64,000 bases of DNA from an uncultured Rhodospirillales bacterium (lineage in GTDB: Bacteria > Pseudomonadota > Alphaproteobacteria > Acetobacterales > Acetobacteraceae): positions 1 to 64,000 of the forward strand of contig CAILMF010000067.1 in assembly GCA_903835235.1 (NCBI GenBank), in the 5' to 3' direction. Position 1 is the first letter of the stretch; each line of letters opens with the position of its first letter. Positions 27,060-60,330 of this stretch are shown piece by piece. The notes below the pieces were generated by a model that saw only the letters and a list, made by a program, of their open reading frames with translations, did no database searches and was not told where the DNA came from. The translations under genes were made by a program, and so were the position numbers.

Positions 27060-28379
27060 TCAGCCGCGGAAGCTGACCGCGGCGCCGACCGGGGCGCCGA
27101 GGACCTCGTCCTCGCGCATCACCAGCTTGCCGCGCACCACGGTCATCTTCGGCCAGCCGGTGCAGTGGTAGCCGTCGAACGGGGTCCAGCCGCAGGGCGA
27201 GACGATCCACTTCTCCTCGATGGTGCGGCTCTGCTTCATGTCCACCAGGGTGAAGTCGGCGTCGTAGCCCATGGCCAGGCGGCCCTTGTTCAGCGCGCCA
27301 TAAACCCGGGCCGGGCCGGCGCACATCAGGTCCACCAGGCGGGTCAGCGGCAGGCGGCCGGCGTTCACGTGGTCCAGCATGATCGGCACGATGGTCTGGA
27401 TGCCGGTCAGGCCCGCCGCGCCATCCGGCCAGGGGCGTTCCTTGGCGGCGCGGCTGTGCGGGGCGTGGTCGCTGCCGATGACGTCCACCGTGCCGTTCAG
27501 CACCGCGGCCCAGGCGGCGTCCTTGTGGCGCTGGTCGCGGATCGGCGGGTTCATCACCGCATAGCCGCCCAGGCGGTCATAGGCCTCGTCGGTTTGCGTG
27601 AGGTGGTTCAGCAGCACTTCCACCGTGCAGATGTCGCGGTAATCCGCCAGGAACGCCAGTTCCTCGGCGGTGGAGACGTGCAGGATATGGGCGGGGCGGC
27701 CGGTCTTGCGCGCTATCGCCATCAGCCGCCGGGTGCCGAGCAGGGCGCATTCGACATCGCGCCAGACCATGTGGTTCCGGTGCGGCATGCCGCTGGTGTA
27801 GTCGGGCTTGCGGGCCTGCAGGCGGTACTCGTCTTCCGAGTGGTAGCAGATGCGGCGGCGGCCGGAGCGCATGACCGCTTCCAGGCTTTCGTCATCCGCC
27901 ACCAGAAGGTCCCCGGTGGAGGAGCCGGCGAAGACCTTCACGGCGCAGACGTTGGCTTCCAGTTCCAGCGCGGCCAGCTCCGGGATGTTCTTCATGCTGG
28001 CGCCGACATACATGCCGACATCGCAGAAAGCGGTGCCGGTGATGTAGTCGCGCTTCCAGTCCAGCCGCGGCTTGTCGGTGATGGCGGGCGCGGTGTTCGG
28101 CATGTCGAACACGGTGGTCAGGCCGCCCAGGATGGCGCCGCGGGTGCCGTCCGAGAGGTTCTCCACCGCGGGGTCGCCGGGGTCGCGCAGGTGGACATGC
28201 GCGTCGATCAGGCCGGGCAGCACGTGCAGGCCGGCGGCGTCGATCACCTGCGGCGCGGTGGCCAGGCGCAGGTCGCCGATGGCGGCGATGCGGCCGGCGC
28301 GGACGCCGACATCGGTGGTCTCGATGCCCCAGGGCAGCACGCAGGCGCCGCCGCGCAGGATCAGGTCATATGCCGCCAT
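27060..28379 (-). CDS. pyrC: Dihydroorotase (class I-like amidohydrolase)
   Basis: A 439-aa cyclic amidohydrolase predicted to interconvert carbamoyl-aspartate and dihydroorotate in pyrimidine synthesis. Start 28379 (MAAYDLILRG) has GGAGG 7 bases upstream; the 591-aa frame runs into the tandem repeat array. Metal-site motifs are DAHVHLRDPG, CAVKVFAG (carbamylated Lys), RICYHSEDE, HILHVST and GSDHAPH. The C-terminal GALNKGRLAMGYDADFTLVD is common to dihydroorotases and allantoinases, so allantoinase or hydantoinase activity is the main alternative. No pyrB or other pyrimidine gene is adjacent. Confidence 0.85.
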   Translation of the reverse strand: MAAYDLILRGGACVLPWGIETTDVGVRAGRIAAIGDLRLATAPQVIDAAGLHVLPGLIDAHVHLRDPGDPAVENLSDGTRGAILGGLTTVFDMPNTAPAITDKPRLDWKRDYITGTAFCDVGMYVGASMKNIPELAALELEANVCAVKVFAGSSTGDLLVADDESLEAVMRSGRRRICYHSEDEYRLQARKPDYTSGMPHRNHMVWRDVECALLGTRRLMAIARKTGRPAHILHVSTAEELAFLADYRDICTVEVLLNHLTQTDEAYDRLGGYAVMNPPIRDQRHKDAAWAAVLNGTVDVIGSDHAPHSRAAKERPWPDGAAGLTGIQTIVPIMLDHVNAGRLPLTRLVDLMCAGPARVYGALNKGRLAMGYDADFTLVDMKQSRTIEEKWIVSPCGWTPFDGYHCTGWPKMTVVRGKLVMREDEVLGAPVGAAVSFRG

Positions 28380-28479
28380 CTTGGGCCTCCTTCGCCGGAA
28401 GCGGCCATGCTTGCCACTGGCGGGGCCGCGCGTGAAGGGCCGGCGCGGCGTGGGAAGGTTTGGGGGGAATGGGCGGGGC

Positions 28480-28727
28480 GGAGGGCGCCGGTTTCGGACA
28501 AATGCCGCGCCCGCGGCGAAGGGCGCCGGTTTCGGACAAATGCCGCGCCCGGGGCGAAGGCGTCGGTTTCGGACGAATGCCGCGCCCGGGGCGAAGGCGT
28601 CGGTTTCGGACGAATGCCACGCCCGGGGTGAAAGGCGCCGGTTCCGGACGAATGCCGCGCCCGGGGCGAAGGCGTCGGTTTCGGACGAATGCCACGCCCG
28701 GGGCGGAGGGCGCCGGTTTCGGACAAA
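28480..28727. repeat. 37/38-bp tandem array in a divergent intergenic region
   Basis: Seven units starting at 28480, 28518, 28556, 28593, 28630, 28668 and 28705 (steps 38, 38, 37, 37, 38, 37); the last is truncated at about 23 bp. The core is GCGCCGGTTTCGGACAAATG or GCGTCGGTTTCGGACGAATG, followed by CCGCGCCCGGGGCGAAGG. CGCCCCGGGCG inside the unit is self-complementary. Units alternate between two subtypes, indicating expansion after divergence. Frames across it are artefacts, since 37 and 38 are not multiples of three. Confidence 0.92.
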
Positions 28728-28842
28728 CCCGGCCTTCCCTCGTCCGGCCGGCCGCCAGCACCTGCCGGGCGGGTGCCCGGCGCAGGGTGCCAGGTGGGGG
28801 CGGCGGGGTGGAGGATGGCAGGGGCTCCGGCGCAAGGGGGTT

Positions 28843-28872
28843 TTGTGAACATATCACGAACACGCCTATAAG
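28843..28872 (+). promoter_or_regulatory. Sigma-70 promoter overlapped by a LexA-type box
   Basis: TTGTGA (28843-28848), an 18-bp spacer, then TATAAG (28867-28872). Within the spacer, GAAC-ATATCAC-GAAC (28847-28861) exactly matches the alphaproteobacterial LexA operator GAAC-N7-GAAC, placed where repressor would block RNA polymerase. The same bases include GTGA-ACATA-TCAC. The first gene downstream is the tyrosine phosphatase at 28934. Confidence 0.65.
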
Positions 28873-28933
28873 GCCAGCATCACGTGGGGGCGCCCCCTTC
28901 TCCCCCCGGCCCCTTTCCGCCATATGCGCCCGC

Positions 28934-29596
28934 ATGTCCGCTGCCCTGACGCCCCCTTCCGGTCGCACCGCCTGGCTGAACAGCCTGCTGGTGGACCACG
29001 CCATGCTGCGGGTTGGCTGGCGCAACTGGGGGGTGGTGGCGCCGGGGCGGCTGTATCGCAGCAACCACCCGCTGCCCTGGCAACTGCGGGAAGCGGCGCA
29101 GCGCCATGGGCTGCGCACCGTCATCAACCTGCGCGGCCACCGCGTGGCCTGCGGCAGCGACGCGCTGGGCCGGCGCGAGGCGCAGCGGCTGGGGCTGGCC
29201 TATATCGACGCCCCGCTGGAAAGCCGTGGCGCGCCGCACAAGGACCGGATCCTGCGCCTGGCCGGGATCTTCGCCGACGCGCCGGAGCCGGTGCTGCTGC
29301 ACTGCAAGTCCGGCGCCGACCGGGCCGGGCTGGCGGCGGGGCTGTGGCTGCTGCTGCAGGGCCGCCCGGCGGAGGAGGCGATGGCGCAGCTCTCCCTGCG
29401 GTTCGGCCATGTGAAGCAGGGCCGCACCGGCATCCTGGATGCCTTCTTTGCGCTGTATGCCAAGGCGGCGCCAAAGCCGTTTTTGGACTGGCTGCGCGAG
29501 GATTATGACGAGGCGAAGCTGCGGGCGGACTTCAACGCAATGAAGCGCACGCCCTGGGCCGATGTGCTGGTGGACAAGGTGCTGCGGCGGGAGTGA
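28934..29596 (+). CDS. Tyrosine / dual-specificity protein phosphatase family
   Basis: A 220-aa protein. The P-loop HCKSGADRAG (Cys about residue 121) fits the CX5R active site of cysteine phosphatases. An upstream LRTVINLRGHR and a general-acid loop region (YIDAPLESRGAPHKD) support the family. Such enzymes dephosphorylate Tyr residues or, in some relatives, lipid or sugar phosphates. Start 28934 (MSAALTPPSG) is chosen by homology length; the ribosome-binding site is weak. About 55 bases upstream is a strong promoter overlapped by a LexA-type box, suggesting damage-inducible expression. It is convergent with the AbrB-family gene. Confidence 0.82.
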   Translation: MSAALTPPSGRTAWLNSLLVDHAMLRVGWRNWGVVAPGRLYRSNHPLPWQLREAAQRHGLRTVINLRGHRVACGSDALGRREAQRLGLAYIDAPLESRGAPHKDRILRLAGIFADAPEPVLLHCKSGADRAGLAAGLWLLLQGRPAEEAMAQLSLRFGHVKQGRTGILDAFFALYAKAAPKPFLDWLREDYDEAKLRADFNAMKRTPWADVLVDKVLRRE

Positions 29597-60054: not shown

Positions 60055-60330
60055 TTACGCGGCAGCGGACGCGACGGGCATTTCTGCCAGGGGCGTGCCG
60101 TTGCGATTGATGACCTGCCAGGTCTTGCGCTTGGAGATCGGCGGGCATTCCTCGATCTGAACGAGGTCGCCTTCCTTGCACATGTTGGCTTCGTCATGCG
60201 CGGCGTACTTCTTCGAACGCCGGATGAACTTCTTGTAGAGCGGATGCATGACGCGACGTTCGACAAGGACGGTAACCGTCTTGTCCATCTTGTCGCTGGT
60301 CACCCGGCCCGTGAGGACGCGCTTCGGCAT
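60055..60330 (-). CDS. rpsQ: 30S ribosomal protein S17
   Basis: A 91-aa protein starting at [10 protein letters not shown] (60330); the 162-aa track frame reads back into rpmC and rpl[41 protein letters not shown] and [20 protein letters not shown] are the family consensus. Confidence 0.97.

Follow-up and report, generated by a model that had tools for sequence, protein, structure and literature searches.

The site at 28847-28861 of the window (the whole 64,000-nucleotide stretch of DNA analysed here) is probably the LexA-type operator and promoter of a leftward-reading, SOS-linked repeat-array element; LexA binding, the RNA and its direction at this locus are what we infer from the DNA letters. 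In the proposed arrangement the operator sits on the -10 region of a leftward promoter, which LexA would block until the DNA is damaged. The transcript would then start near 28840, cross an array of TTTGTCCGAAA motifs from 28727 to 28474, and might read on into the dihydroorotase gene beyond. The locus is one of many such operator-promoter-array units, which occur in this genus and among related Roseomonas-group Acetobacteraceae and share both a promoter class and a motif with a multicopy family of genes encoding a DUF4096 domain and a conserved tail (the DUF4096-tail genes). This corrects an earlier, sequence-only reading, in which a tyrosine phosphatase gene to the right of the site was placed in the SOS regulon, and offers a testable replacement: LexA-type operator-promoters that point strand-specifically into arrays of a short motif and into a gene family under the same control that carries it. 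Were LexA control borne out, SOS would here have a noncoding, repetitive output, and one could look for a specific nucleic-acid partner.

The box itself is present as first described, an exact match to GAACATATCACGAAC, that is, GAAC-ATATCAC-GAAC on the forward strand. It had been said to lie exactly between the hexamers TTGTGA (28843-28848, forward strand) and TATAAG (28867-28872, forward strand); the 18-bp gap between these is correct, but the box shares the last two bases of TTGTGA. Taken alone, a single exact box in 64 kb is close to chance level: the window holds two exact GAAC-N7-GAAC matches against a shuffle mean of 0.58, and at least two were found in 7 of 100 shuffles. Genome-wide, GTTC-N7-GTTC occurs at 84 sites and the reversed pattern at 55, so that many of these sites are background. 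What lifts the window box above chance is its spacer. On the minus strand it reads GTTC-GTGATAT-GTTC, or GTTC-GTGA-TATGTTC, placing it in a GTTC-N4-TATGTTC subclass that has 21 copies in the genome and none for the reversed-pattern control, and G003 and G005, both congeners, keep its register with the -10 element TGATATGTT at the orthologous position. The second exact match in the window, at 60215-60229, has a GC-rich spacer and lies within an apparent ribosomal protein S17 coding sequence; it looks like a chance occurrence.

Many members of this subclass have CTTG(C/A) upstream, giving TTGCNN-N17-TATGTT, apparently a sigma-70-like promoter with the operator over its spacer and -10. When CTTG-N20-TATGTTC was searched for with the upstream GTTC not required, GTTC stood in exact register at 9 of 10 sites in this genome (G000) and at 15 of 19 in four genomes of the genus, three of the four sites lacking it looking like one orthologous site; these counts argue for selection of the operator inside these promoters. 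The GTTC-N4-TATGTTC promoters are followed by (A)TTTGTCCGAAA(CC) repeats or DUF4096 genes. Counted with exact coordinates in five genomes (G000, G001, G002, G004 and G005, with G003 left out because its motif list was incomplete), 28 of 68 sites are followed by TTTGTCCGAAA on the same strand, no more than 600 bp downstream, against 0 in any other orientation; two of these 28 motifs sit inside DUF4096-tail genes. The binomial P values for the same-strand association (about 1e-20 in G000, 7e-11 in G001, 1e-14 in G004 and 2e-21 in G005) treat sites as independent and are overstated because congeners share loci, but the zero in the other orientations stands. The sites thus appear to behave as one-directional promoters, and on this count the window copy would be expected to read leftward.

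At the window locus the predicted leftward extended -10 TGATATGTT (28848-28856, minus strand, with TATGTT at 28848-28853) overlaps the operator and is invariant in three congeners; both GTTC halves are likewise kept in the alignment with G003 and G005. Other members of the class have CTTG(C/A) at a 17-bp spacer (CTTG-N20-TATGTTC), whereas the CTTATA/CTTGC element of the window copy is 5 bp too close, which makes a weak -35, so that the leftward promoter would have to rely on its extended -10. A strict sigma-70 consensus scan of the window locus returned no promoter on either strand. The strong rightward promoter that had been proposed is not supported: its TATAAG is found only in this genome, G003 and G005 having CGCAAG or TGCAAG instead.

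Left of the box, away from the phosphatase and on the strand expected from the box class, lies a tandem array of seven (A)TTTGTCCGAAA(CC) motifs with a period of 37-38 bp (28474-28727, minus strand; units at 28492, 28530, 28567, 28604, 28642, 28679 and 28717), which begins about 130 bp downstream of the operator. This genome has 61 exact copies of TTTGTCCGAAA and 0 of the reversed control; three congeners have 23-38, G001 has 10, G002 has 3 and other relatives have 0-7; matches in other phyla look like chance. Arrays are present in Dankookia, Falsiroseomonas, Neoroseomonas, Roseomonas, Belnapia and related MAGs, and exact boxes stand ahead of arrays also in Belnapia mucosa, Falsiroseomonas oryziterrae and Dankookia. 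Many arrays in other genera have an AGGA-N6-TCCT-type promoter motif in place of the LexA box and some have no recognised operator, so that the array is not tied to LexA alone. A motif array follows lexA, on its transcribed side, in four of six congeners. Individual examples include one directly downstream of lexA (L207:2125-2376, minus strand) and, in this genome, one between imuA and the next, dnaE-like gene (L203:2141-2327, plus strand), both on the transcribed side.

Several other readings of the array were tried and set aside. A structured RNA was rejected, as folding of the array gave no structure above shuffles (mean z about 0) and Rfam covariance models searched over 28300-29000 at E up to 1 gave 0 matches. 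CRISPR arrays have repeats of about 23-50 bp and unique spacers; here the conserved unit is 11-13 bp, and the intervening DNA in the window is GC-rich and mutually similar. A coding array does not agree with the spacings, which overall are not multiples of three (33, 15 and 15 over the three phases), nor with the window period of 37-38 bp. An AbiEi-type antitoxin operator was dismissed, no homolog having been found in this genus; in three sequences from outside the Acetobacteraceae (L121, L139 and L143) the 11-mer TTTGTCCGAAA occurs with inverted TTCGGAC partners upstream of genes that we take, from their sequence, to be AbiEi-like. Isolated motif matches in parC (as Leu-Ser-Glu codons) and in reading frames of L206 and L208 were regarded as background. 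In the literature the motif appears only in unrelated papers, and we found no description of operator-plus-repeat units or of their gene family. CsrB and RsmZ are multi-site decoy RNAs, and the arrangement resembles them in that a short motif is repeated many times downstream of a single regulated promoter and, as predicted here, recurs inside a co-regulated mRNA; unlike them, the array has no RNA structure signal and no known binding partner, and its motif is unrelated to GGA, so this is an analogy only.

The box also stands shortly before the ATG of five genes in this genome that were first taken for transposases. Their products, of about 195-217 residues, consist of a DUF4096 domain, as in IS4/IS5 transposases, and a conserved tail (genes at L033:2049-2633, L011:1541-2122 and L028:816-1466, the last on the minus strand; paralogs in L284-L320). 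Assignment as IS5-family transposases was rejected: only the 76-residue N-terminal DUF4096 matched, the NCBIfam IS5 model reached 57 bits against a cut-off of 110, and no catalytic domain was matched. Multiple copies of these genes occur in this genus, as they do in G008, G010 and G016. Thirteen of 24 further copies from the genus have an exact box, while most of those without it have another promoter motif with a TTCCTA-like core. Asp-Leu-Ser in the tail is encoded by GAT TTG TCC in all 35 of the 35 genes that have it (related paralogs, not independent, but reaching about 40% protein identity), in genes that use TTG for 8% of their leucines and GAT for 36% of their aspartates; TTTTGTCCGAA is also retained by five homologs in which the residues are Leu/Ile-Leu-Ser. 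The codons indicate that the array motif TTTGTCCGAA is conserved at the nucleotide level inside the DUF4096-tail coding sequence. A literature search for DUF4096 together with LexA found nothing. SOS-controlled transposases, ISCR among them, are reported (PMC13393415); set beside these, the DUF4096 ('IS5-like') genes of this group are alike in having LexA-type boxes close upstream and unlike in that the match of their proteins is confined to the 76-residue N-terminal domain.

Either DNA or RNA could be the form in which the motif is read. Our guess is that it may be a nucleic-acid site recognised, for instance, by the DUF4096-tail proteins or by an RNA-binding factor, and that the arrays may act as binding platforms or decoys. 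Put together, and only tentatively, Roseomonas-group Acetobacteraceae may possess an undescribed SOS-linked module in which LexA-repressed promoters transcribe TTTGTCCGAA(A) arrays along with a DUF4096-tail family carrying the nucleotide-selected motif, the motif being the recognition site of a DUF4096-tail protein or some other factor and the arrays its platforms or decoys. The array and box might instead be what is left of a decayed mobile element, a dispersed repeat that has brought an SOS-type promoter into an intergenic region and has no function for the host. We consider this rather doubtful. The same gene neighbourhood in G002 has neither box nor array, array length and spacer vary, and the promoter is common to the IS5-like DUF4096 genes, all of which would suit a dispersed repeat; but box, -10 and motif are kept over three species while the flanks have diverged, the motif is held at the nucleotide level in DUF4096-tail genes down to about 40% protein identity, and arrays follow lexA in four congeners.

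The next gene downstream of the array, at 27060-28379 on the minus strand, encodes a dihydroorotase of the PRK09060 type (NCBIfam NF006559, 660 bits against a cut-off of 482) and is a possible read-through target; it is adjacent to the phosphatase gene in G002, G003 and G005 as well. Being co-directional and starting about 95 bp past the array, it raises the alternative that the leftward RNA is for the most part a long 5' leader of this gene, inducible by the SOS response. This seems unlikely to us, as in G002 the gene is there but the box is not, the genes that follow other arrays are unrelated, and several arrays appear, on inspection of the sequence, to face the ends of convergent genes.

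The alphaproteobacterial LexA operator motif is GTTC-N7-GTTC (PMC3323433), and the earlier identification of the window box as LexA-type is supported by its relatives. An exact GTTC-N7-GTTC lies upstream of lexA in 29 of 30 relatives, the remaining one (L231) having a single mismatch, and the lexA box is related to that of the window. In this genome imuA has a box of the same class, GAACATATGCAGAAC, 103 bp upstream, and an ssb-like gene also has a box upstream. In the recA upstream region read in this genome no exact box was found. The window box is supported as a good LexA-type operator at which LexA binding is predicted. Compared with alphaproteobacterial LexA operators in general, it is alike in its exact half-sites and spacing, in overlapping a putative -10, and in having the motif found at lexA and imuA of the same genome; it is unlike them in that its target would be a noncoding motif array and not a repair gene, and in that TAT recurs ahead of the second GTTC throughout its class. 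An operator for a different repressor, such as a conserved XRE/S24 LexA-like protein, strikes us as quite unlikely. In other genera, and in some cases in this one, arrays and DUF4096-tail genes do use an operator-like motif with TTCCTA/TAGGA cores, and similar cores occur upstream of an S24 repressor gene; in the GTTC class, however, both GTTC halves are fixed while the spacer is free to vary, the upstream half turns up even in searches that do not require it, and the same halves are those found at lexA in 29 of 30 relatives.

Two observations may be recorded next to the LexA-type reading. The XRE/S24 (LexA-like) repressor gene is conserved (L324-L335) and in several genomes has a GAAC-N7-GAAC box upstream, which in L324 lies at about 458-472 with the gene start at about 608; the TTCCTA/TAGGA cores near the gene start resemble the second operator-like motif of the arrays and DUF4096-tail genes. 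In L030, GTTCATGTCTTGTTC at 1501-1515 stands a few bases ahead of an apparent parE (topoisomerase IV), identified by eye in a different frame.

There remains the gene on the right, at 28934-29596 on the plus strand, whose 220-residue product was correctly named a CX5R dual-specificity/tyrosine phosphatase: it contains HCKSGADR and matches the Pfam families Y_phosphatase3, PTP-NADK and BLH_phosphatase above their cut-offs, and among solved structures the nearest chains, those of dual-specificity phosphatases, match it weakly. That this gene is the target of the box is not supported. Orthologs are found in all five congeners, with the box present in G003 and G005 and absent in G001, G002 and G004, the second of which keeps the dihydroorotase-phosphatase neighbourhood without box or array; 24 more distant orthologs have no upstream box of the GTTC-N4-TATGTTC class. 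CCATAT stands directly ahead of the ATG in six of six congeneric phosphatase genes, with or without the box, and may be the phosphatase's own promoter; here CATATG (28921-28926, plus strand), 7 bp before the ATG, is the candidate -10. That the box represses a rightward TTGTGA-N18-TATAAG promoter and so makes the phosphatase SOS-inducible is very improbable, even though both hexamers occur in this genome at 18-bp spacing with the gene start 72 bp downstream, and bound LexA could influence rightward initiation too, since TATAAG is missing in both congeners that keep the box, the other three congeners and the more distant orthologs have the phosphatase without the box, the class elsewhere is strictly one-directional the opposite way, and CCATAT is conserved before the ATG in all six congeners. 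One of the more distant orthologs, in L068, has a single exact GTTC-N7-GTTC upstream, with a different spacer.
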